Shown here: in pieces, positions 3 through 58,624 of the stretch
How positions within the stretch are numbered: the stretch's first letter is position 1
Layout: the number at the start of each line of letters is the position of its first letter
IMG/VR virus record: IMGVR_UViG_3300050821_000359
Location: 1 to 64,000 of that record
DNA length: 64,000 bases
Origin: a virus
Strand: one strand, 5' to 3'
Made by a program: the position numbers and the translations under genes
Notes under the pieces: model-generated
What the model saw: only the letters and a program-made list of their open reading frames with translations
Database searches by the model: none
Told to the model about the DNA's origin: nothing

Positions 3-512
3 ACATCTATTGTGCACGGCAATGCTCAGGTGTCCGGCGATGTTTGGGTGTCCGGCAATGCTCGGGTGTCCGGCAATGCTCAGGTGTCCGGCGATGCTTG
101 GGTGTCCGGCAATGCTCAGGTGTTCGGCAATGCTCGGGTGTCCGGCGATGCTCGGGTGTCCGGCAATGCTCAGGTGTCCGGCAATGCTCAGGTGTCCGGC
201 GATGCTTGGGTGTCCGGCAATGCTCAGGTGTTCGGCAATGCTCGGGTGTCCAGCAATGCTCGGGTGTCCGGCGATGCTTGGAACTTTTCTCCACCTTACA
301 TACAAGGTTCTAAACATTCTCTAACCCTTTGCTCGTTAACCCAAATAGCAATAGGTTGCCATGTTCATGACATAGCAGAATGGATTGAAAAATATAAAGC
401 CATCGGAAGACTAGAACATTATTCCAAAGAACAAATCGCGGAGTACGGTAGACATATCAAATACCTAGCAGCAATCGCAAAAAGGTTGCAGAAAGAGACA
501 AAAAGTGTATAG
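3..512 (+). CDS. Hexapeptide-repeat phage protein, 5' partial
   Basis: The frame is open to the left edge, so the true start probably lies outside the window; GTG at 12 is the first start codon seen. About 15 hexapeptides of the form V-[SF]-G-[ND]-A-[QRW] are followed by a globular C-terminus of about 75 residues rich in charged helices (W-N-F-S-P-P-Y, IGCHVHDIAEW, EYGRHIKYLAAIAKR). Hexapeptide repeats of this kind usually fold as a left-handed beta helix. The same repeat plus C-terminal cap occurs in many phage proteins of unknown role. It overlaps the next gene by 8 bases. I infer a repeat-built scaffold or binding protein, not an acyltransferase, because no catalytic His region is visible. 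Confidence 0.7.
   Translation, partial: TSIVHGNAQVSGDVWVSGNARVSGNAQVSGDAWVSGNAQVFGNARVSGDARVSGNAQVSGNAQVSGDAWVSGNAQVFGNARVSSNARVSGDAWNFSPPYIQGSKHSLTLCSLTQIAIGCHVHDIAEWIEKYKAIGRLEHYSKEQIAEYGRHIKYLAAIAKRLQKETKSV
12..281 (+). repeat. 18-bp tandem repeat array (about 15 copies)
   Basis: Near-identical 18-base units (core GGTGTCCGGCAATGCTC) run head to tail and encode the hexapeptides of the overlapping gene. Variation is mostly limited to codons giving N or D, S or F, and Q, R or W. The other frames are also open across the array (both strands carry spurious repeat ORFs), which is a by-product of an 18-base period. Confidence 0.9.
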
Positions 513-5083: not shown

Positions 5084-5229
5084 TGGAACAGCCAAGAAAA
5101 TTACCTTGTACTGGATGTGGAAGGATAAGACCTAAAAAGTTTTTAAAACCAATTAAGAACAGGGTTGGACTTTTTTGTGGTATTTGTCAAATACCTTATG
5201 GACGTAAGAAAGAGTTTTTCCATGACTAA
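5083..5229 (+). CDS. Small zinc-ribbon protein (48 aa)
   Basis: ATG overlaps the recombinase stop (TAATG). Two C-x-x-C knuckles (PCTGCGR and FCGICQ) separated by a basic stretch define a zinc ribbon. Very basic overall, so nucleic-acid binding is possible. Confidence 0.55.
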   Translation: MEQPRKLPCTGCGRIRPKKFLKPIKNRVGLFCGICQIPYGRKKEFFHD

Positions 5230-5662
5230 AGCCGATTATCTAAAAGAAAACCGATACACATCTGGCTACATGGGTAAAGACAACATGTTACCTAAAAAGT
5301 TTCAGAAGAATGTCGCCCGTTGTGTCAAATTTCTGAAAACAATTAATAAGAGGTATGATAGCATTGCGTTCACAGGAATGTCAGGAGCATTAGTAGCTCC
5401 TATTCTTGCTTACAAACTTAATAAGCATTTATTATTAGTTCGCAAAGAAAATGAGGAACGGCACTCTTGGCAAGATGTAGAAGGTTTTACCAAATGCTCT
5501 AAATACATTATAGTAGATGATTTTATAGTTTCTGGAAAGACTGTAGAAAGAATACAAGAAAAGGTTTTTGAAGACTATCCAGCAGCGAGATGTATTGGTA
5601 CTTTACAATATACCAGAAATATGAGTCTTAGTAAAATAAGTTTAATAGAAAGGGACAAATAA
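5222..5662 (+). CDS. Phosphoribosyltransferase-family protein (146 aa)
   Basis: ATG 5222 is chosen over an in-frame upstream start because it overlaps the previous stop by 8 bases in the usual way. The type I PRTase PRPP-binding motif is clear at residues 96-107 (IIVDDFIVSGKT), and a pyrophosphate-loop-like TGMSG sits at 51-55. The family transfers ribose-5-phosphate from PRPP to a base (orotate, purine, uracil). The acceptor base cannot be assigned. It is short for a housekeeping PRTase. With the Prs-like and NAMPT-like genes at 28.7-31.2 kb it is one of three PRTase-fold proteins in the window. Confidence 0.75.
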   Translation: MTKADYLKENRYTSGYMGKDNMLPKKFQKNVARCVKFLKTINKRYDSIAFTGMSGALVAPILAYKLNKHLLLVRKENEERHSWQDVEGFTKCSKYIIVDDFIVSGKTVERIQEKVFEDYPAARCIGTLQYTRNMSLSKISLIERDK

Positions 5663-10706: not shown

Positions 10707-11834
10707 GTGCTTTTATACGATTACGTAAATGAAGAATTGCTAAAACAAAATATAGCCTCTGAGTTGATAAACGTGCAAAGGCACCCGAACCTGCCCCTTG
10801 ATATTTATACTTATAGTCGTAAGTGTGTTTTAGAACAAGAGTGGAACGACGCCACAATTAAGTGCAGAGGGTTAATTGTTAATAGAGAGACTAAAGAAAT
10901 AGTGGCTAGACCGTTTCAGAAGTTTTTCAACCTTAACGATTCGACTCGTCCTGAAACGTTATTGGAAAACTTGCCAAAAGACGAACCAGTCATAACAGAA
11001 AAGATTGATGGAAATTTAATTACTTTCTGGAGATACGGCATACACTGGGGAGCGGCTAGCAAAGGTTCATTTACTTCGGATCATGCTAAGTGGGCTACTA
11101 AGTGGTTAGAAGATCATATCGAAGAACATGGTCCGCTAGTCTTCCCGGAAGGTTTTACTCCTGTATTTGAGGCTGTGTGCGAATCGGTACAGCATCATGT
11201 GGTTCATTACGGTAAAGATAGATTAGTGTTACTGGCTCTTATTAATATTGAAACCGGTTTTGAGAGTGCTTTAGATCGTCCGTATGCTTTACGGAATCAC
11301 TTGGAATACGTGGACGAGCCACCAATCGGACTAGATGCAGCAATAAACGCAGACGGACCTAACATAGAAGGTTTTGTCGCAACATGGCACAGACCCGGAC
11401 AGCCACCGCTGAAGGTAAAAATTAAGCATCCAACGTTTCTAAAGTACCAGAAGATTTTGCACAAAGCCTCACCAAAAACTGTTTTAGAGTTGCTAAAAAT
11501 GGGCGATCAGGGTACAATTGATAATTGGGTGACAAGTGCTCCTAAACATATTGCCGTAGTTATCGATCAATGGCAAGGAATGTTTAAAAATACTTATGAG
11601 CATCTTAGAAGCATGTCGGCAAGCATTCTGACAGAAGCGTTAAAGACTTGTACGACCCGTAAAGAGTTTGCTTTCTTCTTTTTAGAAGAACAGAATAAGT
11701 TTTTTGCTCCGGTCTGTTTCGCTATGTTAGACGAGCATAAACACCAAGAAGTTATATGGAAGATCATCGGACATAGTTTAGACAATGATCAAATGTTTGC
11801 CAGTGCTTTTAGATCACTAGAGATAGGAGATTAA
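10707..11834 (+). CDS. T4 Rnl1-type RNA ligase (375 aa)
   Basis: GTG start after TAGGAGATAC. Nucleotidyltransferase motif I is E-K99-I-D-G-N, with the lysine at the same position as in T4 Rnl1. Upstream KCRGLIVN is the typical RNA-ligase N-terminal signature. Motif III-like FTPVFEAV, motif IV NIEGFVATW and motif V PLKVKIKHPTFLKY follow in order. The family seals 5'-phosphate and 3'-OH RNA ends with ATP and repairs tRNAs cut by anticodon nucleases such as PrrC. No Pnkp-type kinase-phosphatase is adjacent. A second, different RNA ligase lies at 17.6 kb and a nucleotidyltransferase at 12.8 kb. Confidence 0.9.
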   Translation: MLLYDYVNEELLKQNIASELINVQRHPNLPLDIYTYSRKCVLEQEWNDATIKCRGLIVNRETKEIVARPFQKFFNLNDSTRPETLLENLPKDEPVITEKIDGNLITFWRYGIHWGAASKGSFTSDHAKWATKWLEDHIEEHGPLVFPEGFTPVFEAVCESVQHHVVHYGKDRLVLLALINIETGFESALDRPYALRNHLEYVDEPPIGLDAAINADGPNIEGFVATWHRPGQPPLKVKIKHPTFLKYQKILHKASPKTVLELLKMGDQGTIDNWVTSAPKHIAVVIDQWQGMFKNTYEHLRSMSASILTEALKTCTTRKEFAFFFLEEQNKFFAPVCFAMLDEHKHQEVIWKIIGHSLDNDQMFASAFRSLEIGD

Positions 11835-11835
11835 C

Positions 11836-12264
11836 ATGTTAAAAGTCTATTTAGCAGCACAATACGCTAGACGAGATGAAATGTGTATCGTTGCTAAGCA
11901 TTTGCAAGAAGTTGGTGTAGAGGTTACTTCTCGGTGGCTAGCAGAACAGGAAAGTCTTTCTAGCGACATGGGCGATCATTCTGATGATTTTTATAAAACT
12001 ACTGCGGCAATTGACCTAGAAGATATTGATAGAGCAGATGTACTTGTGTTTATGGCCGAAAGTCCTTTAGTGGGAATTAAACGCGGGGGGCGGCATGTGG
12101 AATTTGGGTACGCTTTGGCAAAAGGTAAGAGAATATTTGTCATAGGGTTTAAGGAAAATGTGTTCCACTATATTCCTGGTGTAGAGCATTTTATTGGTAT
12201 CGAGGATGTTGTACATTATATTGATTTAATTAGCCATGTGGAAGAAAATTGTATAAAAAATTAG
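11836..12264 (+). CDS. Nucleoside 2-deoxyribosyltransferase-like protein (142 aa)
   Basis: ATG one base after the RNA-ligase stop. The fold signature is LKVYLAAQYARRDEM at the start, D65-R-A-D68-V-L-V-F, and G-G-R-H-V-E89-F-G-Y-A-L-A-K-G-K, where E89 corresponds to the catalytic Glu of nucleoside deoxyribosyltransferases. The family exchanges or hydrolyses the N-glycosidic bond of (deoxy)nucleosides or nucleotides. Close relatives include nucleotide 5'-monophosphate glycosidases, so the substrate is open. Nucleotide salvage is the simplest role. Confidence 0.65.
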   Translation: MLKVYLAAQYARRDEMCIVAKHLQEVGVEVTSRWLAEQESLSSDMGDHSDDFYKTTAAIDLEDIDRADVLVFMAESPLVGIKRGGRHVEFGYALAKGKRIFVIGFKENVFHYIPGVEHFIGIEDVVHYIDLISHVEENCIKN

Positions 12265-12797
12265 ACATTACTGGTCAAAAATTTGGCAGACTTGTTGTAA
12301 TTGGTCGTTCTTTCAAAAAGTATAAAAACGAACAACCTCATTGGGAGTGCCGATGCGATTGTGGAACAATGCGAAGAGTCTACCAAGGTAGTTTGACAAG
12401 AGGCATAACCGTATCTTGCGGTTGCTATCGAAATGAGCGAACAGGTAATGTTAAAAGATTAAGACCATTTGAAGGTTTATATAACATTTTAGCAAGTAAC
12501 ACTCGTGACGGCAAGGTAAGTTGTGAATTGACTTACGAAGAGTTTTTAGAGTTTACTAAAATAACAAAATGTCATTATTGCGGTGATGACATAACATGGT
12601 ACGAATTTAATACAGCTAAAAACGGAAGCGGTTATAATATAGATAGAAAAGATAATGCAATTGGCTATAATAAAGGCAATTGCGTTGTAAGTTGCGGGAT
12701 ATGTAACTGGCTAAAGTCTAAATTTAATTATGAAGAATTTCTACAGCAAGTTCAAAAGATAGCGAGATACCAGAATGAACGAAATTGTAAGAATTAA
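12249..12797 (+). CDS. HNH endonuclease with N-terminal FGRL domain (182 aa)
   Basis: TTG start, overlapping the previous gene by 16 bases. N-terminal DNA-binding module D-I-T-G-Q-K-F-G-R-L-V-V with Zn Cys (CRCDCG, SCGC), then an HNH nuclease domain (KCHYCGDD, YNIDRKDNAIGYNKGNCV, SCGICNWLKS). This is a homing-endonuclease layout. The same two-part family recurs on the - strand at 38353-38877. It interrupts the RNA-repair gene row. Confidence 0.8.
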   Translation: MYKKLDITGQKFGRLVVIGRSFKKYKNEQPHWECRCDCGTMRRVYQGSLTRGITVSCGCYRNERTGNVKRLRPFEGLYNILASNTRDGKVSCELTYEEFLEFTKITKCHYCGDDITWYEFNTAKNGSGYNIDRKDNAIGYNKGNCVVSCGICNWLKSKFNYEEFLQQVQKIARYQNERNCKN

Positions 12798-13761
12798 ATT
12801 CGGAAGCCACTTGTACGGGACTAACACTCCTAGCAGCGATGTTGATTACAAAGCTGTCCACATCCCACCAGCTTCCGATATTCTGCTACAGAGGGTCCGT
12901 GAATCTATTAAGACCGGACCCTCTAAAGGCGAAGGGGAAAAGAATAATCCGGGAGACATTGACTGCGAATCATACTCTTTACAGAGATTCTTACAGTTAT
13001 TGGCAAAGGGAGAGACTGGACCCATCGACATGCTGTTCGCACCAAATCCAGAAAAGAAAACCCATATCTGGAAAGAAATTATTAGTAATAGACACAGACT
13101 TCTTACTAAGAAGAGTGCAGCTTTTGTAGGGTATTGTCGTACACAAGCTAACAAGTATGGGATAAAAGGGTCTAGAGTAGCTGCTGCTAAAGCTGCTATG
13201 GAGGCTTTTACATCTATTAGTAAGTGGGGTTTCGCATTACACAAGGTAGGGGAATTTACCGAGCATCTACCGACCGGGGAGCACTCACAAACAGTAGTAA
13301 AAGAGACTACTCCCGGTAAATTTGAAACCTATTACGAATGTTGCAACCGGATGGTAGGTTTTAAGAATACTATCAAAGAGGCTGCTAAGATTTTTACAAC
13401 CATCTATGAAGAGTACGGACACAGGGCTAGACTAGCTGAAAGCAACGAAGGAATCGACTGGAAGGCTCTTAGTCATGCTGTCCGAGTTGGTGACGAAGCT
13501 ATTGAATTGTTAATGACCCATAAAGTCACCTTCCCGTTAGTTCGTGCGGAACATATTAAGCAGATCAAACTAGGACAAATTCCTTACAAGCAGGTAGCAG
13601 AAGAAATTGAAGAGTTTCTATTAAAGGTAGAGAAGGCTTCTGAACTGTCTGACATGCGCGAAGAACCTGACTATCAATGGATTGACGAATTTGTAGAAAA
13701 GATTTATGCAAAAGTAGTTTACGATAAGTATGTAGGTTTCGAGGAATATGGAAATAATTAA
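12775..13761 (+). CDS. COG3541-type predicted nucleotidyltransferase (328 aa)
   Basis: ATG overlaps the HNH gene by 23 bases. The Pol-beta-superfamily signature is at the N-terminus: F-G10-S11-H-L-Y-G-T, then S-D22-V-D24-Y, with the two metal-binding Asp present. A third acidic candidate lies in the D-C-E-S-Y region near 61. The large helical C-terminal domain fits the uncharacterised phage/bacterial nucleotidyltransferase family related to YcgL. Placement between two RNA ligases suggests a role in RNA end repair, such as 3'-end addition, but the substrate is unknown. Confidence 0.7.
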   Translation: MNEIVRIKFGSHLYGTNTPSSDVDYKAVHIPPASDILLQRVRESIKTGPSKGEGEKNNPGDIDCESYSLQRFLQLLAKGETGPIDMLFAPNPEKKTHIWKEIISNRHRLLTKKSAAFVGYCRTQANKYGIKGSRVAAAKAAMEAFTSISKWGFALHKVGEFTEHLPTGEHSQTVVKETTPGKFETYYECCNRMVGFKNTIKEAAKIFTTIYEEYGHRARLAESNEGIDWKALSHAVRVGDEAIELLMTHKVTFPLVRAEHIKQIKLGQIPYKQVAEEIEEFLLKVEKASELSDMREEPDYQWIDEFVEKIYAKVVYDKYVGFEEYGNN

Positions 13762-14930: not shown

Positions 14931-15515
14931 ATGAAATGCTGTACTAAGTGCAATCTATTTAAAGACGATTCTGAGTTCTATATAAGAAAAACAGGAAAAC
15001 TGTATTCGTGGTGCAAGGATTGTACTAAACAGTATGCAGAAGAAAACCCATCAAATACCGCCAAAAACCCGGAATGGATCGCGGCTTACAGATTAAAAAA
15101 CAGAGATAGGTTGATAGCTAATCATAGAAAATCTAGGGCCAATAACTTACCCAAACGAAGAAACATTGAGAAGAAATGGGCAGCAAAAGACAGACAAGAA
15201 AACCCCGGCAAATACTTAGTACATCAGGCAAGAGCAAGAGCTAGAAAGAAAGGTCTGCCATTTAATTTAGAAGGCACTGTCGATATTCCAGATTTTTGCC
15301 CAATTCTTAACATACCTCTGTTCAAAGGTATTAAGAAACATGGACCAAATTCACCTAGTTTAGATCAAATAGTTGCTGGAAACGGTTATACAAAAGACAA
15401 TTCTCAAGTTATTTCATATAAAGCTAACACAATGAAGACCGATGCTTCGCCCGAAGAACTAATTCGTTTTGCTAATTGGGTGCTAAAAACTTATGTTAAG
15501 ACCTTACCAGACTAA
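14931..15515 (+). CDS. HNH-like homing endonuclease with N-terminal zinc ribbon (194 aa)
   Basis: Ribosome site AGAGAGGAGTA. Zn ribbon CTKCNLFK...WCKDC at the N-terminus, a basic helical middle, then a nuclease-type C-terminus with CPILNIPL, P-S-L-D-Q-I-V-A-G-N-G-Y and NSQVISYKANTMK, a pattern shared with phage HNH proteins. It overlaps the helicase by 23 bases, so it may have inserted at the helicase start. Confidence 0.65.
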   Translation: MKCCTKCNLFKDDSEFYIRKTGKLYSWCKDCTKQYAEENPSNTAKNPEWIAAYRLKNRDRLIANHRKSRANNLPKRRNIEKKWAAKDRQENPGKYLVHQARARARKKGLPFNLEGTVDIPDFCPILNIPLFKGIKKHGPNSPSLDQIVAGNGYTKDNSQVISYKANTMKTDASPEELIRFANWVLKTYVKTLPD

Positions 15516-17438: not shown

Positions 17439-17614
17439 ATAGAAACTCTGAGGTACTAGCAGATTTTGTGAAATACTGTCAGGAACACCCTGACGAACGA
17501 TTTTGGCAGGCTATTAGAAATTGGAGCGGTTACTTCAAAGTTGTTGTGGGACCGACCACTATGGACGAAGGTTTAGATACTTTTTATTGGGAAGGAAAAC
17601 GGCATGAAAGCTAA
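17435..17614 (+). CDS. Small phage protein with FWQAIRNW motif (59 aa)
   Basis: ATG overlaps the preceding TGA (ATGA). RFWQAIRNWSGY in the centre is a recurring motif of small phage proteins of unknown role. Ends inside the start of the next RNA-ligase gene (11-base overlap). Confidence 0.55.
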   Translation: MNRNSEVLADFVKYCQEHPDERFWQAIRNWSGYFKVVVGPTTMDEGLDTFYWEGKRHES

Positions 17615-18752
17615 TCACCAAGTAAACATTGTCAAAATTGATACTATCCTGCCACACACCAACGCGGATAATCTTGAGATTATCAAGGTAGGAGAATATC
17701 AGGTAGTTTCTAGGAAGGGTCAGTTTGTTATTGGATCACTAGGAGTTTACCTACAACCGGATTCGGTCGTTCCGCAAACCGAGGCGTTTCGTTTTATCTG
17801 GGGAGACTATTATGCTGAACCGCCAATGCACGGTGCTGTGACTGTTCCTGAGAAGAAACGGCGAATTACTGTTAGAAGGTTTAGAGGAGAATGGTCAGAG
17901 GGACTGTTACTACCTGTTAGTGATTTTGATGAACTTGTTGATAGTACATTGACTAGACATTTTGTAGAATCGGATCATCCGGTTGGAAAAGATGTTAGCG
18001 AACTTTTAGGAATTATTCACTATGATCCTGATAAAGAACTTAGAGGCGACGATCAGGCTGCTCCTAAACGGAAGAGACGTTATCCGAAGACTCTCAGGGG
18101 ATGGATTAATTTCCTATTAGCTAAGTTGAGTTTTAGGAATCGGGAGAAGTTCTTAGCTGGAACTGACAGTCTAGGTATTCCATCCTATGATGTTAATGCT
18201 TTAAAGAATTATCCTAATACCTTTCAGGATGGAGAACTAGTTTCCGTTACTGAGAAGATACATGGAAGTAACGCACGATACGTTTTTATTGATGGAGTAA
18301 TGTATGCGGGGTCGAAAAACTACTGGAAGGCGCAAGACTCTAGCTGTATATGGCGCAAGGCAATCGTTGCGAACCCTTGGATTCGTCAATGGTGCGAGTC
18401 ACACCCTGAGTATGTGCTTTACGGCGAAGTCGGAGCAAGTCAGAAGGGTTTCGATTACGGACACAAAGCCGATGACCCATTCTTCTTCGTCTTCGACGTA
18501 AGGCTTCCTAACGGCAAATGGGCTGACGAGAATACGCCAGAAGGCTTGCAGGCTCTTATGTCTTTGCAGCCTTATTGGGTGCCAGAACTGTACAAGGGAC
18601 CGTTTGACAAGGAAACTGTTAAAGCTTTGTCAACAGGACCGTCAACAGTCATGAAAGCAAAGCATATTAGAGAAGGTGTAGTAGTTTCTGCTGTTGCTCG
18701 AAGGGCTAAGTTAAAGGTGGTATCGAATACGTTTCTAGAAAAGGATAAGTAA
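17604..18752 (+). CDS. Rnl5/DRB0094-type RNA ligase (382 aa)
   Basis: An N-terminal OB-type domain (VNIVKIDTILPHTNADNLEIIKV) precedes the adenylyltransferase domain, the order found in Deinococcus DRB0094. Motif I is T-E-K218-I-H-G-S-N; motif III is near VLYGEVGA; motif IV is H-I-R-E-G-V-V-V; motif V is KLKVVS. The family seals nicked RNA, especially 3'-OH/5'-PO4 in RNA:DNA or RNA duplexes. Between the two domains is a basic segment (about residues 153-185, KRKRRYPKTLRGW) that could bind RNA. Unlike the Rnl1-type enzyme at 10.7 kb, so the phage carries two distinct ligase classes. Confidence 0.85.
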   Translation: MKANHQVNIVKIDTILPHTNADNLEIIKVGEYQVVSRKGQFVIGSLGVYLQPDSVVPQTEAFRFIWGDYYAEPPMHGAVTVPEKKRRITVRRFRGEWSEGLLLPVSDFDELVDSTLTRHFVESDHPVGKDVSELLGIIHYDPDKELRGDDQAAPKRKRRYPKTLRGWINFLLAKLSFRNREKFLAGTDSLGIPSYDVNALKNYPNTFQDGELVSVTEKIHGSNARYVFIDGVMYAGSKNYWKAQDSSCIWRKAIVANPWIRQWCESHPEYVLYGEVGASQKGFDYGHKADDPFFFVFDVRLPNGKWADENTPEGLQALMSLQPYWVPELYKGPFDKETVKALSTGPSTVMKAKHIREGVVVSAVARRAKLKVVSNTFLEKDK

Positions 18753-21687: not shown

Positions 21688-22190
21688 CAGAACGACAGAA
21701 GATTAACCAAGTAATTAGTAAATTGCGAAACGATTGGCCTACTACTCCAGAAGAGTGTAAGACATATGGAATACGTCTTTGCAAATATAGCCGATCTGGT
21801 GCGTATAGATATGTCTATAAGGTGTGGGGTTTGCCACTTGTTATCAAATTTCCACAAAACGATGACGACAAGATACATGCTATTCAGGAATGGATAGTTT
21901 ATAATAAACTGAAATTCTGTGATAGGTATAGGAAATTAAAGAAGTACATGCCTACCATTTACTACTTTAACATGAAGACCGGGGTAAGTGCTATGCGGTA
22001 TTATAAGGTGCTTGGCGAGTCAAATTGGCGTAACTCTAATAAATACGATAAATCTAGAAGCCTTTTAGAGAAACGAGTTAAAAAGATTTATAAACACGCA
22101 AACGATGTTGACAATTCGGGCAACGTAGCAAGGGATAAAAACGGACAGCTAAAGATAATAGATTTAGGCTGCTTCGATGAGGTTTGGTGA
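21684..22190 (+). CDS. Minimal protein kinase-like fold protein (168 aa)
   Basis: ATG overlaps the primase-helicase stop. N-lobe-like GAYRYVYKVWGLPLVIKFP (glycine-loop substitute and V-I-K lysine), hinge region, then H-A-N-D-V-D-N-S-G-N-V (catalytic-loop-like D and N) and I-I-D-L-G (DFG-like). That is the order of kinase-fold active-site motifs in a very small protein. Substrate unknown; it may be a pseudokinase or small-molecule kinase. Confidence 0.5.
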   Translation: MTERQKINQVISKLRNDWPTTPEECKTYGIRLCKYSRSGAYRYVYKVWGLPLVIKFPQNDDDKIHAIQEWIVYNKLKFCDRYRKLKKYMPTIYYFNMKTGVSAMRYYKVLGESNWRNSNKYDKSRSLLEKRVKKIYKHANDVDNSGNVARDKNGQLKIIDLGCFDEVW

Positions 22191-22576
22191 CAGCAAAAGA
22201 ACGAGCAAAGGATGCTAGATTAAAAAGAGAATACCATATAACCCTTGCAGAATTTAATAAGGTTCTAGCATATCAGAATAACTGTTGTGCAATTTGTAAG
22301 AAAAGATTTGGTAAGAAGGGTCAGAAATTAATACTATCAGTTGATCACTGTCACACAACGGGGTTATGTCGTGGCCTGCTCTGTTGGCCTTGCAATAAAG
22401 CTATAGCAATTTTTCAAGATGATGCGAAGAGAATGGCGGCAGCTTCGCAGTACATACTTAATCCGCCGTTTACTGTCGTTCTGGGTGCTCCTAGAGTCAC
22501 CGCGCCGGGGAAGGTAGGAACCAAAATAAGAGCCAAAAGGTTACTAAAAATGGCTAGGGAAAAGAATGGGGCTTAG
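22187..22576 (+). CDS. Endonuclease VII-like HNH protein (129-130 aa)
   Basis: GTG at 22187 overlaps the previous TGA; TTG at 22184 is an alternative. Core C-C-A-I-C, L-S-V-D-H-C-H, G-L-C-R-G-L-L-C-W-P-C-N-K-A: the zinc-and-catalytic pattern of recombination endonuclease VII (T4 gp49). It may resolve branched DNA, or be a homing copy, since the same core recurs in three other genes here. Confidence 0.8.
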   Translation: MTAKERAKDARLKREYHITLAEFNKVLAYQNNCCAICKKRFGKKGQKLILSVDHCHTTGLCRGLLCWPCNKAIAIFQDDAKRMAAASQYILNPPFTVVLGAPRVTAPGKVGTKIRAKRLLKMAREKNGA

Positions 22577-24152: not shown

Positions 24153-25297
24153 AAGGATTAGCAGATTTACAAGCATTATTAGGAGCTACGCAGGGGCAAA
24201 TTGTTAACGGTTTTCAAATTGTTGATATTCCTAATTCAGTTCCCTCGGAAACAATTGTTCAGGCTAAGAAAGAAAAGGAACCAAAGCTGGCAAGCAAGGA
24301 AGATAAGTTTGAAGTTCTAAAACAGCTTAATAAAAAACTTAACAAACAATTTGAAGTTAATGTCTCACTTACCAGAATGGGAGAAAAGGTAGGAATTCGT
24401 CTACCAAGTATCAGTACCAATCTTCCATCATTAGATGAAGGTGTGCTACAATGCGGCGGCATTCCAATTGGCCGAATTGTTGAAATCTTCGGACCTGAAT
24501 CCGCTGGTAAAACTACCCTTGCTTTACACATAATTGCACAGGAGCAAAAGAACACTAGCAATCTGTGTGCTTTCATAGATGCAGAACATTCACTAGACCC
24601 AACTTATGCAGCATCTCTGGGTGTTAACATGGATGAGTTAGTTATTAGTCAACCTGATAGCGGCGAGCAAGCACTAGAAACTGTTGAGGAATTAATTGAT
24701 AGTCGTACTGTCAGTCTGATTATCATTGATTCTGTTGCTGCGTTAGTTCCACAAGCAGAGCTAGACGGAGAAATGGGCGATTCCAACATGGGCTTACAGG
24801 CAAGACTTCTCTCACAAGCAATGAGGAAGTTACGTGGAAAAGCTAATATGAATGGTGTCAGTTTGATATTCATTAATCAGATACGTGAGAAAATTGGTGT
24901 AATGTTTGGCAATCCTGAGACAACGACTGGAGGCAGAGCATTAAAATTTTACTCATCTGTACGTCTAGACGTTCGTCGTAAAGATGTTATCGGACCAAAA
25001 GAACAGCCTATAGGTCACACTCTCAAAGTAAAAGCAGTAAAGAATAAGTGTGGAGCGCCCATGCGTGAAACATTTATCAATTTGCTTTATGGAAAAGGAA
25101 TAGATACCTTCGCAGATACGGTTAGTTACGGCGTCACATGTGGCGCAATAGAACAATCGGGTGCATGGTATTCTTATCAAGGGGAACGTATAGCATACGG
25201 TTTAGAAAATACTATTGAAAAACTTAGAGGAGAGGCGCAACTTTTTGAGAAAATTCGTGTCAATATTATAGAAAGGACCAAAAACACGGAGAACTAA
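24149..25297 (+). CDS. recA: RecA/UvsX-type recombinase (382 aa)
   Basis: GTG start overlapping the previous TGA. Walker A G-P-E-S-A-G-K-T at about 115-122, Walker B LIIIDSVAAL, L1-type MGLQARLLSQAMRKL, SLIFINQIREKIGVMFGNPETT and GGRALKFYSSVRLD follow bacterial RecA closely. Slightly longer than bacterial RecA (about 350). It forms filaments on ssDNA for strand exchange in recombination-dependent replication, with the primase-helicase, SSB-like and RecB-like proteins. Confidence 0.95.
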   Translation: MKGLADLQALLGATQGQIVNGFQIVDIPNSVPSETIVQAKKEKEPKLASKEDKFEVLKQLNKKLNKQFEVNVSLTRMGEKVGIRLPSISTNLPSLDEGVLQCGGIPIGRIVEIFGPESAGKTTLALHIIAQEQKNTSNLCAFIDAEHSLDPTYAASLGVNMDELVISQPDSGEQALETVEELIDSRTVSLIIIDSVAALVPQAELDGEMGDSNMGLQARLLSQAMRKLRGKANMNGVSLIFINQIREKIGVMFGNPETTTGGRALKFYSSVRLDVRRKDVIGPKEQPIGHTLKVKAVKNKCGAPMRETFINLLYGKGIDTFADTVSYGVTCGAIEQSGAWYSYQGERIAYGLENTIEKLRGEAQLFEKIRVNIIERTKNTEN

Positions 25298-25917
25298 TGA
25301 AAGTATGTACCAAATGTAAAAAAGAAAAAGATAAAACTTTCTTTGGAAAAGACACTAGTCGTAAAGACCTGCTCAATCCTTGGTGCAAAGAGTGTAAACG
25401 GCAAGCGTCGTTAGTTTATAAAGCTGAAAACAAAGAAAAAATAGCTGCATATTATTTAAAAAACAAGGATAAAGTATCCGCACTAAATGCGGCGTGGCGT
25501 GCTAAGAATAAAGAAAAAATAATCGCCTATAGAATAGAAAATAAAAACTATTATCGTGACTACCAGCTTACACATAAAGAAGAACAGAAAGATTGGAGAA
25601 GAAGAAAGTTATACGGAATTTCAAATGACGATTTCAGAGAAATACTTGAAATACAAGAAAACAAATGCTTAATTTGTAAAGAATTGTTTTCGGATAACAA
25701 TTTGCCTCATGTAGACCACTGTCATTGTTCCGGAGAATTACGAGGCATTTTGTGTGGAACCTGTAATCGAGCACTAGGACTCTTTAAAGATCGACCGGAC
25801 CTCTGCCGAGCAGCCGCCGATTATTTGGAAATTTACAAAAACCTCTTGACAACCGACCAGACCCTTGATACTCTAGGTTCAGAGTTGTTCAAGGCAATCA
25901 AAGTAGCAGTAGATTAA
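25297..25917 (+). CDS. EndoVII-like HNH endonuclease with N-terminal zinc ribbon (206 aa)
   Basis: ATG overlaps the recA stop by one base. N-terminal ribbon CTKCKKEK...WCKECKR, a long Lys-rich helical region, then a nuclease core with CLICKELF, H-V-D-H-C-H and L-R-G-I-L-C-G-T-C-N-R-A-L-G. Same core as the genes at 22187, 46581 and 58136. Likely a homing gene placed behind recA; its end contains a promoter for the next cassette. Confidence 0.8.
   Translation: MKVCTKCKKEKDKTFFGKDTSRKDLLNPWCKECKRQASLVYKAENKEKIAAYYLKNKDKVSALNAAWRAKNKEKIIAYRIENKNYYRDYQLTHKEEQKDWRRRKLYGISNDDFREILEIQENKCLICKELFSDNNLPHVDHCHCSGELRGILCGTCNRALGLFKDRPDLCRAAADYLEIYKNLLTTDQTLDTLGSELFKAIKVAVD
25846..25874 (+). promoter_or_regulatory. 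Possible promoter for the secreted-protein cassette
   Basis: TTGACA (25846-25851), 17-base spacer, TACTCT (25869-25874). The -10 is weak but the -35 is perfect. It lies at the end of the HNH gene, about 55 bases before the gene at 25931. Confidence 0.4.
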
Positions 25918-28323: not shown

Positions 28324-28417
28324 CATAGCGATTATCGTTTTCTTAGCTATCTACGGATTACTGAGTCTAGTGATCGATGTAAACAATAAGGTGAATAAAT
28401 GGTTGAAAAAGAATTAA
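28316..28417 (+). CDS. Tiny membrane peptide (33 aa)
   Basis: ATG inside the previous gene end, preceded by GGAGGCAAA. Helix IIVFLAIYGLLSLVIDV with a basic C-terminus. Unknown; likely the partner of the preceding peptide. Confidence 0.4.
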   Translation: MISIAIIVFLAIYGLLSLVIDVNNKVNKWLKKN

Positions 28418-28686
28418 CAATAATTGAAAGCTACGATCTACTTGTTGCTAAAAGAAACCCAGAGTCTAGACGGTCTATTAAGATATTTCTGGAGATTATT
28501 AGCAATCTGACAGACAGGTTAGCAGAAGCTAGCAAAGTACTAGAAGAAATTGCTAACAGTTCGCACCAAGCGTATGATGGGAATGCCTCATTTATCAGTG
28601 AGCACTCAAGTGGGTACGCACTAGGTGTAGCTGATGGTCATAGATGCGCGGCAGCAACGGCTAAATTATACCTAGAAAGGATTTAA
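28399..28686 (+). CDS. Hypothetical helical protein (95 aa)
   Basis: ATG overlapping by 19 bases. Helical (RRSIKIFLEIISNLTDRLAEASKVLEEIANS) with a Gly/Ala-rich C-terminus (GYALGVADGHRCAAATAKLYLERI). Precedes the NAD gene pair by 1 base, so it is probably co-translated with it; a role in that module is unknown. Confidence 0.5.
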   Translation: MVEKELTIIESYDLLVAKRNPESRRSIKIFLEIISNLTDRLAEASKVLEEIANSSHQAYDGNASFISEHSSGYALGVADGHRCAAATAKLYLERI

Positions 28687-28687
28687 A

Positions 28688-29512
28688 ATGTTTATAGTAA
28701 CGAGCGGCAATCGTTGGCTCCAATACAAAGCGTTCGTGTTTAGCGGCGGCGAAGTGAGCGTAAAGCTTACGCCCGAATTGACAAGTTTCACGTTTCCTAG
28801 TGACGTAGTTCACATTACTGCTCACATCACTTCGTCAAATAAGGTGATGGAATTAGTCATGCTGACAGACGCTATTCGCAGAGAATGGGGCGATGTAGCA
28901 ATTGTTCTGAAATGTCCGTACCTTCCTTACGCAAGACAAGATAGGGTATGCGCCCCCGGAGAATCGCTATCATTAAAGGTTTTCTGTGATATTATTAACT
29001 CGTTGAAGTTTAGATACGTATATGTAGCAGACGTTCATAGCGAAGTCGCTTTAGCACTTCTCGACAATGTTGTTAACATCCAGCAAGAAAACTTTGTCAG
29101 TAAAATTGACAGCAAGTATCTGGTTAACACTTGCCTAGTCTCACCAGATGCAGGAGCTACTAAAAAGATTAATAACGTTGCTAGGGCTTTGAAACTTCCG
29201 GTTATCCGCGCTGACAAGGTACGTGATCCGAATACCGGAGAGATTACAGGAACCGATATTCAGAAAAATCCTGCTTTTTGGGATAGCAATTTACTAGTTG
29301 TTGACGATATTTGTGACGGTGGTAGAACATTTATTGAGTTAGCTAAGAAAGCGAAAGAACGTTATGAAATTGGAAAGTACTATCTATACGTCACACACGG
29401 AATTTTTAGCAAAGGGTTAGAGCCGCTGTTAGAATACTATGACCATATATTCACAGCTTACCCCTTTCCGGGAATAGCTCATGAGAAACTGACTGTATTA
29501 GGAGGAATTTAG
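28688..29512 (+). CDS. PRPP-synthetase-like enzyme, probable ADP-ribose pyrophosphokinase (Adps) of an NAD+ reconstitution pathway (274 aa)
   Basis: Keeps the Prs layout: C-P-Y-L-P-Y-A-R-Q-D-R near 77-86 with PGESLS (ATP site), VADVHSEVA near 113-121, SPDAGATKK near 152-160, and the pyrophosphate/ribose loop V-V-D-D-I-C-D-G-G-R-T at 204-214. At 274 residues it is shorter than housekeeping Prs (about 315). In known phages a Prs-like gene next to a NAMPT-like gene makes ADP-ribose pyrophosphate from ADP-ribose (NARP1, Adps plus Namat). True PRPP synthetase activity cannot be excluded from sequence alone. One-base overlap with the next gene (stop and start share a base) argues for coupled expression. 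Confidence 0.75.
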   Translation: MFIVTSGNRWLQYKAFVFSGGEVSVKLTPELTSFTFPSDVVHITAHITSSNKVMELVMLTDAIRREWGDVAIVLKCPYLPYARQDRVCAPGESLSLKVFCDIINSLKFRYVYVADVHSEVALALLDNVVNIQQENFVSKIDSKYLVNTCLVSPDAGATKKINNVARALKLPVIRADKVRDPNTGEITGTDIQKNPAFWDSNLLVVDDICDGGRTFIELAKKAKERYEIGKYYLYVTHGIFSKGLEPLLEYYDHIFTAYPFPGIAHEKLTVLGGI

Positions 29513-31224
29513 TGCATAACATGTTTCCACTTCACGCTACAGACTTTTATAAGACCGGTCACTATGCGCAATATCCTGCCGGTACAGAATACGTATATTC
29601 TAACTTTACCTGCCGATCTGATAAATTCTTTAAGGGTCTTCCAGATTTTGATCACAAAGTTGTCTTCTTTGGCTTACAGGCTGTTTGTAAATGGCTCCTT
29701 ATCGAACAATGGAATAAAGAGTTTTTTAACAAGCCAAAAGACGAAGTTGTCAGTCGGTACAAGCGTAGAATGGATAAGGCTCTTGGTCCCGGTCTAGTAG
29801 ACACTAAGCACATCGAAGACCTGCACGATCTGGGCTATCTGCCAGTAGAAATTAAAGCACTTGCAGAAGGCGCACGAGTTAACATTAGAGTACCACTTTA
29901 TACTATCAGGAATACTGATCCTAATTTTGGATGGGTTACTAATTACCTCGAAACGCAGCTATCCGCCGAAACTTGGAAACCAATTACTACCGCAACTATG
30001 GCCTACGAATATAGAAGGTTATTAGACCGTTATGCAGAACTGACAGGTAGTTCTAAGGATTTTGTCCCTTGGCAGGGTCACGACTTCTCTGACAGAGGCA
30101 TGTCGGGCATTTATGACGGGGCTATCAACGGTGCTGCTCACCTTCTGTCCTTTACCGGGACAGACACAGTACAGGCTTTAGACTTCTTAGAAGACTATTA
30201 CGGAGCTAGTGATACATTCATTGGCGGAAGTGTGCCAGCTACCGAGCATTCTGTAATGTGTATGGGAGGAAAAGAAGACGAAGTAGAAACGTTCCGTAGA
30301 TTGATTACTAAAACCTATCCTAAAGGAATTGTTAGTATCGTATCAGATACGTGGGACTTCTGGAAGGTAGTAACGGATTACGTACAGCAATTAAAGTATG
30401 TTATTTTGAGCAGGGATGGTAAGGTTGTTATTAGACCAGACAGCGGCGATCCTGTAGATATTTTGTGCGGGACAGCTTATATTAGCGATCTAGATAAGGA
30501 ACCTTCGGTAAAATCTTTAGAAGATGCTAAATCATACGCGGAAGAATGGTTGGTAGAAGACGAGCGGGATGCTACTCCGCATGGAGAATGTGGAAATTGG
30601 GAAATATCGGGTTATTTTAAATTTAATAACAAGATTTATAAAATAGTTGTTCAAATTGACTGGAACCGTCACGATAAACAATACTATTATATCGATGGCA
30701 GTTCTATTAAGAGTTGTGTAGAAACTGTTCTGACTCCTTCCGAGAAAGGCGCAGTCGAATGTCTTTGGGAAGTATTTGGTGGAACTATTACGGACAAAGG
30801 CTACAAGCTTTTGGACAGCCACATAGGTCTAATCTATGGCGACTCGATTACCCTTGACAGAGCACAGGCTATTCTGGCAAGATTAAAGCAGAAAGGGTTT
30901 GCGTCTGGCAATATAATCCTAGGAATTGGCTCCTACACATTTAACTACGTTACTCGTGATACACTAGGGTCTGCTATTAAGGCTACATGGGGAGTTGTCA
31001 ACGGGGAAGAGCGTAATCTATTCAAAGACCCGGTGACTGATAGCGGTGTTAAGAAGTCTGCTAAAGGTCTATTAATGGTTACTAAAGAAGGTAACGAGTA
31101 TGTGCTCCACGACGAGCAGACTAAAAGCATGGAAGCAACAGGGCAATTAAAAACCGTCTTCTGGAATAGTCAGATGATGCGGGAACAATCATTAGAAGAA
31201 ATTAGAAAGGAATTACATGGGTAG
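29512..31224 (+). CDS. NAMPT-like phosphoribosyltransferase, probable nicotinamide-ADPR transferase (Namat) (570 aa)
   Basis: GTG start sharing a base with the previous stop. NAMPT-family residues are present: G-H-D-F-S-D-R195-G-M-S (Arg of the RG motif), G-T-D218-T, T-E-H246-S-V (catalytic His), S-D-T-W-D-F-W, and R308-P-D310-S-G-D-P. Human NAMPT is 491 residues; the extra length is mainly a block at about residues 321-410, between R-P-D-S-G-D-P and KGAVECLWEVFGG, that I cannot match to known NAMPT. With the Prs-like partner this would join nicotinamide to ADPR-PP and regenerate NAD+. Canonical NMN synthesis is the alternative; no NMNAT gene is visible nearby. Confidence 0.85.
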   Translation: MHNMFPLHATDFYKTGHYAQYPAGTEYVYSNFTCRSDKFFKGLPDFDHKVVFFGLQAVCKWLLIEQWNKEFFNKPKDEVVSRYKRRMDKALGPGLVDTKHIEDLHDLGYLPVEIKALAEGARVNIRVPLYTIRNTDPNFGWVTNYLETQLSAETWKPITTATMAYEYRRLLDRYAELTGSSKDFVPWQGHDFSDRGMSGIYDGAINGAAHLLSFTGTDTVQALDFLEDYYGASDTFIGGSVPATEHSVMCMGGKEDEVETFRRLITKTYPKGIVSIVSDTWDFWKVVTDYVQQLKYVILSRDGKVVIRPDSGDPVDILCGTAYISDLDKEPSVKSLEDAKSYAEEWLVEDERDATPHGECGNWEISGYFKFNNKIYKIVVQIDWNRHDKQYYYIDGSSIKSCVETVLTPSEKGAVECLWEVFGGTITDKGYKLLDSHIGLIYGDSITLDRAQAILARLKQKGFASGNIILGIGSYTFNYVTRDTLGSAIKATWGVVNGEERNLFKDPVTDSGVKKSAKGLLMVTKEGNEYVLHDEQTKSMEATGQLKTVFWNSQMMREQSLEEIRKELHG

Positions 31225-32278
31225 CTGTTTTCTTAAACGGGGAACTACATATCGGGTAGCTTCACAGGAAGCCTTGGACATGCATGATAAACTTCCTGCT
31301 GGAACCTACGCTGTTAAGTTTAGCATGGAGACTGGTTTCTATCTAGAGGTTATCGACTCTTTTCCGATTCCTAGTAGGATTTATGGCAGTTATTCTCAGG
31401 ATGCTGATAGAATCTGGAATACATTTTCTAAGCGTACTGGAACTACGGGCGTATTACTTACGGGTGAGAAAGGAAGCGGTAAAACTCTTCTGTCAAAGCT
31501 TGTAAGCCATAACGCTCTAGCTCAGAATGTGCCGACTCTTGTTGTTAATCAGCCTTTTTCTGGCGAAGGATTTAACACTTTCCTTCAAGACATTGAGCAA
31601 CGATGCATAGTTATCTTTGACGAATTTGAAAAGACTTACGACAAAGATGATCAGGAAAAAATTCTCACGTTGTTGGACGGTGTTTTTAACAGTACTAAAC
31701 TATTTATCCTTACGTCTAACGACAAATGGAAGATCGATGTTAACATGCGCAATCGTCCGGGACGTATCTTCTACTTGCTAGAATTTAGGGGGGTTGATGA
31801 AGCTTTTGTCCGAGATTACTGCCATGAAAAACTTAATAACAAATCTTATATTCAGTCTATCTGCAATCTGCTAACGATGTTTGATGCATTTAATTTCGAC
31901 ATGCTTCAATCATTAGTAGAAGAGATGAATCGTTATGAGGAGTCTCCACAAGACGCTTTGAAGTTTTTGAACATCAAGCCGTTAATGATTGAAAGACAAA
32001 CTTATAAAATTAAATTTTTCATAGAAAATTCTGAAATTGATGAAGCCAAACTAGAAGATACAACCGTCACAATATCTCCAATGGTATCGCCAGTTCAGGT
32101 TAGCTGGCTAACTGACAAATTAGATAGTGATAACGAGCCGGAATGGGAGAATGTAATATTTACACCTGAAGATATTAAGCACATTTCTCAGGGTAAATAT
32201 CTTTATGTACAAGGTAACTACAAGCTATCTATCAGTCGTATTGAAACGGATAACTTTGATTATAGGAAATATCTATGA
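31217..32278 (+). CDS. AAA+ ATPase (353 aa)
   Basis: Overlaps the NAMPT-like gene by 8 bases. Walker A at 83-90 (G-E-K-G-S-G-K-T), Walker B IVIFDE (131-136), sensor-1 LFILTSN, and N-R-P-G-R that can act as the Arg finger or sensor-2. An N-terminal strand-rich domain (residues 1-60) and a C-terminal beta-rich part (from about 255) flank the ATPase. The family is common in large phages without clear function, proposed as a remodeller. Its tight linkage to the NAD pair may be meaningful. Confidence 0.75.
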   Translation: MGSCFLKRGTTYRVASQEALDMHDKLPAGTYAVKFSMETGFYLEVIDSFPIPSRIYGSYSQDADRIWNTFSKRTGTTGVLLTGEKGSGKTLLSKLVSHNALAQNVPTLVVNQPFSGEGFNTFLQDIEQRCIVIFDEFEKTYDKDDQEKILTLLDGVFNSTKLFILTSNDKWKIDVNMRNRPGRIFYLLEFRGVDEAFVRDYCHEKLNNKSYIQSICNLLTMFDAFNFDMLQSLVEEMNRYEESPQDALKFLNIKPLMIERQTYKIKFFIENSEIDEAKLEDTTVTISPMVSPVQVSWLTDKLDSDNEPEWENVIFTPEDIKHISQGKYLYVQGNYKLSISRIETDNFDYRKYL

Positions 32279-32475
32279 AAGTAAAGGAATTTGTCATTGA
32301 ACTTAACAAGTTGGTTGACGAGGGACATGGAGACAAAGAAATGTTTTCATGCCACGGAGCTAGCGGAGCAATTGATCCAATTGGCTACCCATATTTCAGG
32401 AAAGGACTAGACGCCACGTTTGGTCCTTTCGATCTAGACGGTGACGAATTTGTGGAGGTTTATATTGGAAACTGA
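32275..32475 (+). CDS. Small conserved phage protein (66 aa)
   Basis: ATGA overlap. KVKEFVIELNKLVDEGHGDKEMFSCHGASGAIDPIG, then an acidic end; the pattern V-x-E-F-x-x-x-L-x-x-L-V-x-x-G-x-G-D is seen in small phage proteins of unknown role. Last gene before the convergence terminator. Confidence 0.5.
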   Translation: MKVKEFVIELNKLVDEGHGDKEMFSCHGASGAIDPIGYPYFRKGLDATFGPFDLDGDEFVEVYIGN

Positions 32476-32491
32476 GTATCTAAAAAGATTA

Positions 32492-32520
32492 AGGCCGGGG
32501 TTTGATCCCCGGCTTTTCCT
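32492..32520. terminator. Convergent rho-independent terminator
   Basis: GCCGGGG (32494-32500), 6-base loop, CCCCGGC (32507-32513), then TTTTCCTTTT on the + strand; on the - strand a T-rich tract follows a few bases later. It ends the left block and may also stop the right block, whose last gene ends at 32526. Confidence 0.9.
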
Positions 32521-46363: not shown

Positions 46364-46593
46364 TTTGGTATATATAGCCGCCTTTGTGGAACCATTGTCG
46401 TAAATGTTTGTCGCAATGAATCGGTATTAGTCTGCCATACTTGCGGCAACGCACACCTTAGAAAAGGATTTCTAACCGGTTGTGTCGGTGCCGCTGCAAA
46501 AGGAATACTAGGATCACGATTCGGTTGCTTAATAGGTTCAGAAGAACTATAGTTTTGTGAATAATTAGTTAATGCATCGCTTAAACTTGGCAT
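46360..46593 (-). CDS. Small structural-cluster protein (77 aa)
   Basis: Pro/Ser/Gln-rich disordered protein with ATG overlapping the upstream HNH stop by 13 bases. Located between the stabilisation protein region and GNAT-like gene. Unknown role. Confidence 0.45.
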   Translation of the reverse strand: MPSLSDALTNYSQNYSSSEPIKQPNRDPSIPFAAAPTQPVRNPFLRCALPQVWQTNTDSLRQTFTTMVPQRRLYIPK

Positions 46594-47060
46594 AGTTTCT
46601 TATCCTCATAGGTATCAAGATAATTAATGGCCGATTTTAACATCTCTTTACTATCTTTAAACCTTCCTAGAGCCGTGTTACATCCGTCACATAGAAGTCC
46701 ACGAATGCATTTGCCACAAGTTTTTCTTTCCGGACAACATGCGTGATCGTGATCTACATTAACTTTTGCCATAACACATTTACAGATAGCACATGTGTTG
46801 CCTTGGGAATCTAGTAAACTATTAAATTGGTCCAGAGTCATTCCATATAAACGCTTTAAATCATTCTTTTTAAAATAATCTGGATTATTTAAATTCCACC
46901 TATCATTGTACAGTTTTTTCCTTTCAGGACTTAGCTTAGGAGGATATTTCTTTGATCGTTCGGCGCGACAAGTTCGACAGTGCCTATGCTTGTTTTTGTG
47001 CATATAAATATTTTCTTCAGTAAAAGGATGCCCTCGCTTACAGTGTGATCGTAATGTCAT
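46581..47060 (-). CDS. EndoVII-like HNH endonuclease (159 aa)
   Basis: Zinc pair CRTCRAE after an N-terminal HCKRGHPF, then CAICKCVM, V-D-H-D-H, CIRGLLCDGCNTALGRF. Same core as the genes at 22187, 25297 and 58136. It separates two virion genes, so it is probably a mobile insertion. Confidence 0.8.
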   Translation of the reverse strand: MTLRSHCKRGHPFTEENIYMHKNKHRHCRTCRAERSKKYPPKLSPERKKLYNDRWNLNNPDYFKKNDLKRLYGMTLDQFNSLLDSQGNTCAICKCVMAKVNVDHDHACCPERKTCGKCIRGLLCDGCNTALGRFKDSKEMLKSAINYLDTYEDKKLCQV

Positions 47061-57980: not shown

Positions 57981-58139
57981 TTAATTTTTCTGAATAGTTG
58001 TCACATTGTTGCCCTGAACTGAATAAATTTTCTGTGTTCCTATGTAAAAATTTACGAAACCAGATTCAAAGTCATAACTGTCAGCTTTGACCACGATGAC
58101 AGGTTGTGTGACCCATCTTGTTACTATGTAGGTATTCAT
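57981..58139 (-). CDS. Small virion-cluster protein (52 aa)
   Basis: ATG 58139 follows CAGGAGTTATC. MNTYIVTRWVTQPVIVVKAD, then FESGFVNFYIGTQKIYSVQGNNV: a small strand-rich family (VTxPIVVxAD...GFVNFY) I have seen in phage tail clusters. An upstream in-frame extension lies inside the HNH gene and is rejected. Confidence 0.55.
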   Translation of the reverse strand: MNTYIVTRWVTQPVIVVKADSYDFESGFVNFYIGTQKIYSVQGNNVTTIQKN

Positions 58140-58624
58140 TGATAACTCCTGATATACGCTGCCATCTTTTCTAGCAGGTTTGGATCGTCGTAGGCCGCCC
58201 CAAGTGCGACATTGCATGTTGTACAGAGTAACTTTCGTATCCTCATAGTTTTATGACAATGGTCAACTTGAAAATAAAGGTTACCTCTTCCCGGTTCACT
58301 AGTTCCACAAAGAGCACATTTGTTGTCCTGAGATAGCAACATTTCTTTGTATTGTTCTAAGGTAATGCCAAACTTTCTTTTTAGAATAGTATTTTTTACG
58401 GTTTCCGGGTTGCTTTCTCTATATCTTTTAGCTCTAGCACATCGTTCTGGTATATCTTTTTGGTAATATCTACGATGATTTATTCGATTACATTCCATGC
58501 ACTTACGTCCGTTCTTAGTGCCGTTCTTGTGGAATAATTGTTTATAACTTCCTTCTACGAATTCGTGCCCATTTTTACAATGAGTTTTGAGTTTCGGGCC
58601 TCTTGTTTTTAGTATAATATCCAT
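58136..58624 (-). CDS. EndoVII-like HNH endonuclease (162 aa)
   Basis: K-T-H-C-K-N-G-H-E-F, RKCMECNRIN, then CALCGTSE, F-Q-V-D-H-C-H and L-L-C-T-T-C-N-V-A-L-G. Promoter with TATAAT directly upstream, which is unusual for a homing gene and suggests independent expression. Confidence 0.8.
   Translation of the reverse strand: MDIILKTRGPKLKTHCKNGHEFVEGSYKQLFHKNGTKNGRKCMECNRINHRRYYQKDIPERCARAKRYRESNPETVKNTILKRKFGITLEQYKEMLLSQDNKCALCGTSEPGRGNLYFQVDHCHKTMRIRKLLCTTCNVALGAAYDDPNLLEKMAAYIRSYQ

Follow-up and report, generated by a model that had tools for sequence, protein, structure and literature searches.

A candidate NARP1 gene pair in an uncultivated phage, and a predicted folded segment at a hypervariable site of its Namat

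Genes and features at the locus

The stretch of DNA analysed here (the window) comprises positions 1-64,000 of the virus record IMGVR_UViG_3300050821_000359, which is 67,264 bases long in full and is itself an incomplete fragment. Two + strand ORFs in the window (Table 1) have base 29512 in common, as this base belongs to both the stop codon of the first and the start codon of the second (TAG/GTG). This arrangement agrees with the first-pass annotation, which had described a shortened Prs-like gene and a NAMPT-like gene sharing one base, and the word 'shortened' is also apt, the first product being 274 aa long against 315 aa in Escherichia coli Prs. An in-frame ATG at 29521 is an alternative start of the second ORF, and its use would abolish the one-base overlap. 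The first ORF matched Pribosyltran_N and Pribosyltran, and the second matched NAPRTase and NAMPT_N, all above the Pfam cut-offs; the PHROG matches of the pair were phrog_619 (E 2e-83) and phrog_448 (E 2e-199). Judged from these sequence matches, both ORFs are real members of their superfamilies and not chance reading frames.

Table 1. Coordinates of the gene pair, its neighbours and the features discussed in the text (positions in the window)
Feature	Position	Strand	Basis and remarks
ORF of 95 aa, 1 nt upstream of the Adps start, without a family match	28399..28686	+	ORF list, Pfam, PHROGs
Adps-like gene (ADP-ribose pyrophosphate synthetase; Prs fold), 274 aa	28688..29512	+	ATG start; ORF list, Pfam, PHROGs, tree, AF2 model
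Adps phosphoribosyl-binding loop VVDDICDGGRTF (Prs: DDMIDTGGT)	29297..29332	+	Alignment of tree rows
Shine-Dalgarno AGGAGG, with a 6-nt spacer to the GTG of the Namat gene	29500..29505	+	Sequence
Putative Namat gene (nicotinamide ADP-ribose transferase), 570 aa	29512..31224	+	GTG start; structure matches, alignment, trees, model
Clamp-loop residues Lys38-Phe39, Bas63-type	29623..29628	+	Alignment vs published clamp loop
His246, catalytic histidine position	30247..30249	+	Alignment; 97/97 Namats, 5/5 Nampts
Catalytic-core Arg308 and Asp310 (SPbetaL1 Arg306 and Asp308)	30433..30441	+	Alignment
Extra segment, aa 321-412, HGExG...WNRHDKQYYYID type; predicted helix 336-354 and three strands 364-404	30472..30747	+	Alignment, HMM, AF2 model
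Clamp helix motif GSYTFNYVTRD, aa 473-483	30928..30960	+	Alignment vs published consensus
AAA ATPase gene (phrog_2376), 8-nt overlap with the Namat end	31217..32278	+	ORF list, Pfam, PHROGs
ORF of 66 aa, 4-nt overlap with the ATPase gene	32275..32475	+	ORF list
Terminator-like hairpin downstream of the packed genes, 10 pairs (7 G-C)	32491..32516	+	Hairpin scan

Three more + strand ORFs, which were absent from the first-pass annotation, are tightly packed around the pair. The ORF upstream of the Adps-like gene is probably carried on the same transcript as that gene, and we infer that the packed ORFs and the pair together form a single transcript. The hairpin that follows the gene run is weak evidence by itself, because three terminator-like sites were found where 3.9 would be expected by chance; the promoter scan, with 18 matches against 15 by chance, was uninformative. 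A homologue of the AAA ATPase was seen in only one other fetched locus, the syntenic relative L106, and the ATPase was therefore dropped as a candidate for a general partner of NARP1.

Some other parts of the window deserve a brief description. Genes for two RNA ligases and for a nucleotidyltransferase of the RlaP type were noticed at 10707-11834, 12775-13761 and 17604-18752; they make up an RNA-repair set, which could answer tRNA-cutting defences. The ORF at 11836-12264 bears a weak match, below the Pfam cut-off, to nucleoside 2-deoxyribosyltransferase, and that at 5165-5662 encodes a small phosphoribosyltransferase-like protein with weak matches to PRTase-CE and to PRTase_III-A of PADLOC. 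Small ORFs resembling HNH endonucleases were recognised by eye at 12249-12797, 14931-15515, 22184-22576, 25297-25917, 46581-47060 and 58136-58624, among others, and short-repeat ORFs occupy both strands at the start of the window (7-324).

The Adps-like protein

In the product of the first gene, the loop DDICDGGRTF stands in place of the Prs loop DDMIDTGGT. The same DDICDGGRTF loop was found in the homologues of Escherichia phage JohannJBalmer, which is 47% identical to the window protein, and of a Felixounavirus (L025). In a tree of 92 Adps-type rows, in which only four Prs, including that of E. coli, served for comparison, the window protein grouped with the 91 other Namat-associated Prs-like proteins and apart from Prs with 100% support. 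Its AlphaFold2 (AF2) model has a pLDDT of 93, and the Foldseek matches of the model are PRPP synthetases. The phylogeny and the partner gene support an assignment of the first enzyme to Adps, not to Prs; the name depends on clade and partner only, as neither an Adps structure nor substrate determinants have been published.

Wherever the fetched DNA extended far enough upstream of a Namat-type gene, the locus contained an Adps-like ORF as well, in most cases before the Namat-type gene and now and then after it. The loci without such an ORF are those in which the Namat ORF starts inside the first 760 bases of the fetched sequence.

Selectivity clamp and catalytic core of the second protein

Among solved structures, the second protein scored highest against the Namat of the Bacillus phage SPbetaL1 (9w5x; 533 bits), followed by Haemophilus ducreyi NadV (HdNadV; 410 bits) and human NAMPT (257 bits). 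The AlphaFold2 model has a mean pLDDT of 95, and its best Foldseek matches are the two Namat crystal structures (TM 0.94 by target). Namat has been defined as a NAMPT catalytic core equipped with an adenine 'selectivity clamp' that selects ADPR-PP (PMC12774641). The clamp consists of (i) a helix with the consensus GS-X-phi-X-phi-X-phi-TRD, in which positions 3 and 7 are aromatic, and (ii) a loop carrying either Arg or a Lys/Tyr followed by a stacking residue, the Lys-then-stacking form being that of the Bas63 Namat (PMC12774641). The motif GSYTFNYVTRD of the window protein fits the helix consensus with both aromatics present, and Lys38-Phe39 correspond to the Bas63 form of the loop, a position that we also read from the ungapped sequence, as the alignment is gapped there. 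This substrate signature of Namat had been beyond the reach of the first-pass annotation.

The catalytic core is also kept, with Phe192, Asp218, Arg308 and His246 in the places of the published Phe189, Asp215, Arg306 and catalytic His. The NAD+ contacts are those of the SPbetaL1 Namat except for Ala362, Phe392 and the clamp-loop Arg40, which are replaced by Ser445, Tyr475 and Lys38 (followed by Phe), respectively. Position 3 of the clamp helix is Tyr or Phe in 95 of the 97 Namat-type sequences and Gly or Lys in five phage Nampts; the latter carry GGGLLQ or GTKLVN at the place of the clamp motif, neither of which is found in the window protein. The case shows that the published clamp, and not the Pfam and PHROG names (Prs and nicotinamide phosphoribosyltransferase), can indicate the substrate specificity of such proteins.

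Phylogeny of the Namat core and the case of HdNadV

A tree was built on the Namat core, from which the extra segment described below had been removed. The 97 Namat-type rows were separated from the five phage Nampts with an SH-aLRT support of 99%, albeit with a long branch (K64-1) at the join. When K64-1 was left out and 35 rows were used for a more careful tree, the split between Namat and Nampt received 100/100. The pair thus groups neither with housekeeping Prs nor with the phage Nampts, the placement that the first-pass annotation had named as contradicting its reading. Within the Namat clade, the systems of SPbetaL1 and Vibrio phage ICP1, both experimentally supported (PMC12774641, PMC11559045), fall on either side of the window protein.

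The position in the clade alone does not prove the use of ADPR-PP, because HdNadV (PDB 9KE8, 9KEO), which was solved with NMN, nests in the same clade and is 58% identical to the SPbetaL1 Namat. HdNadV resembles the window protein in its Namat-clade core, its CG loop and its TRD. Nevertheless, its clamp helix reads GAQTYQRNTRD, in which Gln and Arg replace the two aromatics, and it has no Arg, Lys or Tyr at position 3 of the clamp loop. Since a member of the clade can be devoid of the clamp aromatics, it is the clamp residues that carry the argument, and the window protein agrees with Namat in both clade and clamp. As for HdNadV itself, its place in the Namat clade without the clamp aromatics raises the possibility of a return to NMN formation.

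HdNadV is also pertinent to a reading in which the first enzyme is a Prs producing PRPP and the second a Nampt producing NMN, which an adenylyltransferase of the host would convert to NAD+, so that the pair would serve nucleotide supply or a host-assisted route resembling NARP2. Such a reading gains from the presence of HdNadV in the clade, from the Pfam and PHROG names of the pair, and from the fact that Namat also forms NMN from PRPP in vitro at approximately half the rate of human Nampt (PMC12774641). However, the window protein has the clamp aromatics and the clamp-loop residue that HdNadV lacks, and the Prs-like protein both lacks the loop DDMIDTGGT and falls outside Prs. We therefore regard a Prs and Nampt pair as improbable.

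A putative NARP1 module

The first-pass annotation had reported that no NMN adenylyltransferase was visible, and this held for the whole record: CTP_transf_like (PF01467) gave no match in the 67,264-base fragment, while the same search was positive in 14 of 14 control genomes. The domain search likewise recovered no macro or Nudix domain in the record, a fragment, and the search for the RyR domain, which gave 0 matches in the record but also 0 in the control genomes, is uninformative.

An NMN adenylyltransferase gene might nevertheless lie outside the fragment, elsewhere in the phage genome, in which case the pair would belong to NARP2. The record is indeed a fragment, and the phages that possess a true Nampt (Moby, B23 and K64-1) encode an NMN adenylyltransferase beside or near it. 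It is this very proximity, not seen here, together with the negative PF01467 search of the record, that speaks against NARP2; moreover, the Nampts of those phages have GGGLLQ or GTKLVN, and no Adps-type gene accompanies them in the fetched stretch. We consider NARP2 highly improbable. A separate case is the locus L018, labelled as an Acinetobacter phage, in which genes for Adps, Namat and a bifunctional NMN adenylyltransferase/ADP-ribose pyrophosphatase stand in a row; this locus may be bacterial, because an equal identity of 63% was obtained with an A. baumannii record of 4.1 Mb from the plasmid collection.

The published Namat clamp, the positions in the Namat and Adps clades and the absence of a PF01467 match from the 67,264-base fragment all point to NARP1 in preference to NARP2, the choice already made in the first-pass annotation. 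We conclude that the gene pair is very probably a NARP1 module, which would rebuild NAD+ after the action of a host NADase defence. In the proposed mechanism, the defence NADase would cleave NAD+ into ADP-ribose and nicotinamide, Adps would transfer pyrophosphate from ATP onto ADP-ribose to yield ADPR-PP, and Namat would join ADPR-PP and nicotinamide into NAD+ in one step. From the genes we infer that the two enzymes would be active in this way, would be expressed while the phage infects its host and would act against the defence. NARP1 is already known from other phages (PMC12774641, PMC11559045); the window would extend its occurrence to an uncultivated phage, and as a NARP1 module the pair is ordinary.

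Comparison with known systems

The NARP1 of SPbetaL1 (Namat 9W5X/9W5W), which was tested biochemically (PMC12774641), resembles the window in the Adps-Namat order, the clamp motif, the contact residues and the fold, and its annotated genes also share one base. The SPbetaL1 Namat is ~54% identical to that of the window over the N-terminal 310 aa, and the SPbetaL1 Adps, with the loop DDLSSFGGTF, is 31% identical. NrsAB of ICP1 (PMC11559045) is the same gene pair, with the clamp motif GSYTYQYVTRD; its Namat is 51% identical over 324 aa and its Adps 38%. The Namats of JohannJBalmer and the Felixounavirus, the latter with a Lys-Trp clamp loop that is Lys-aromatic as in the window, are 38-43% identical to the window protein, and their segments at the variable site described below (57 and 88 residues) are unrelated to its own.

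An extra segment at a hypervariable site of Namat

In comparison with the SPbetaL1 Namat, the window protein is ~80 residues longer between ...RPDSGDPVDILCG and KGAVECLWEVFGG, a feature absent from the first-pass annotation. The extra segment begins about ten residues past the catalytic Asp310 and amounts to 92 residues, as opposed to 11 in SPbetaL1 and 12 in ICP1. This site holds 11-100 residues in the Namats and 0-3 in the Nampts, and the standard deviation of its length is 27.9 residues, compared with 6.1 at the next most variable interval. The segment of the window is of the HGExG...WNRHDKQYYYID (WNRHDKQ) type, which an HMM recognised in 36 of 97 Namats. These sequences were sampled for their similarity to the window, and the counts apply to that sample and not to Namats at large. 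HG, WNR and DK are strongly conserved in this type, and the segment is predicted to be an ordered alpha/beta unit (pLDDT >90) composed of a helix and a three-stranded sheet. Segments of the same type occupy the same site in the Namats of Certrevirus CR8, Pseudomonas phage NoPa and Kolpuevirus, which are 40-50% identical to the window protein. NARP1 is known; what appears to be new is a predicted folded segment (aa 321-412) at a hypervariable site of Namat, and the main paper on the Namat structure (PMC12774641) does not use the words 'insertion' and 'hypervariable'. The longest Namat ORF of all, 717 aa, was seen at L107:3671-5824, where it overlaps the Adps ORF.

Among 64 pairs of Namats with cores 80-95% identical, the segments had no detectable similarity in 50, whereas they were related in the six pairs with cores >95% identical. 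L092 and L098, whose cores are 92% identical, are an example of loci with unrelated segments. Five pairs were compared as DNA, one of which includes the isolate Salmonella phage SP-9-14, and their identity dropped from 75-92% in the bins flanking the site to 28-45% inside it. On the core tree, the WNRHDKQ type is scattered and requires 25 changes, at least 16 of which are forced by starred branches; this speaks against a single origin of the segment. The nearest core relatives of the window (L106, L078, L097, L102 and L108) have just 12-14 residues at the site. Segment and core identities are nevertheless correlated (Mantel r 0.68, and 0.42 for pairs with <80% core identity). Vertical descent of the segment, interrupted time and again by its loss or replacement, is therefore a likelier history than free shuffling, although gains and losses are indistinguishable in these comparisons.

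Neither the domain databases nor the genomic context gave a function for the segment. When searched alone, it had no significant match in Pfam; in PHROGs its best match was a Namat family, with weak matches to phrog_5875, phrog_9996 and phrog_33348. Namats account for 99 of the 101 ORFs that carry the segment motif, and as just one protein of another kind was found with it, the context gives no function. That protein, encoded from L156:2327 onwards, is small (up to 137 aa) and has the WNRHDK domain at its C-terminus.

Close relatives do without the segment, so that catalysis probably does not depend on it. The same relatives, as well as the scatter of the WNRHDKQ type over the core tree, would suit a neutral loop decoration that drifts freely and has no selected role. 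Nevertheless, one type recurs with conserved residues in more than a third of the sampled Namats and is predicted to be ordered, and the abrupt drop of DNA identity at the site resembles replacement or strong diversification more than slow drift. Neutral decoration is a possible explanation, albeit not one that we favour; our best guess is a surface domain that the enzyme can dispense with and on which diversifying selection acts. A regulatory role would be a guess as well. More specifically, we tentatively, and with some doubt, propose that Namat has a cassette site after the catalytic strand RPDSGDPV-x-I-x-CG, at which phages would exchange one small domain for unrelated ones while the core stays 80-95% identical. 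The cassette would be under arms-race selection, for instance for escape from an inhibitor of Namat made by the host or by a rival phage, or for the binding of a partner or ligand. This site is absent from Nampt, and the window has its commonest folded type. If the cassette site does serve as a surface in an arms race, inhibitors that act directly on NAD+ reconstitution may be produced by hosts.
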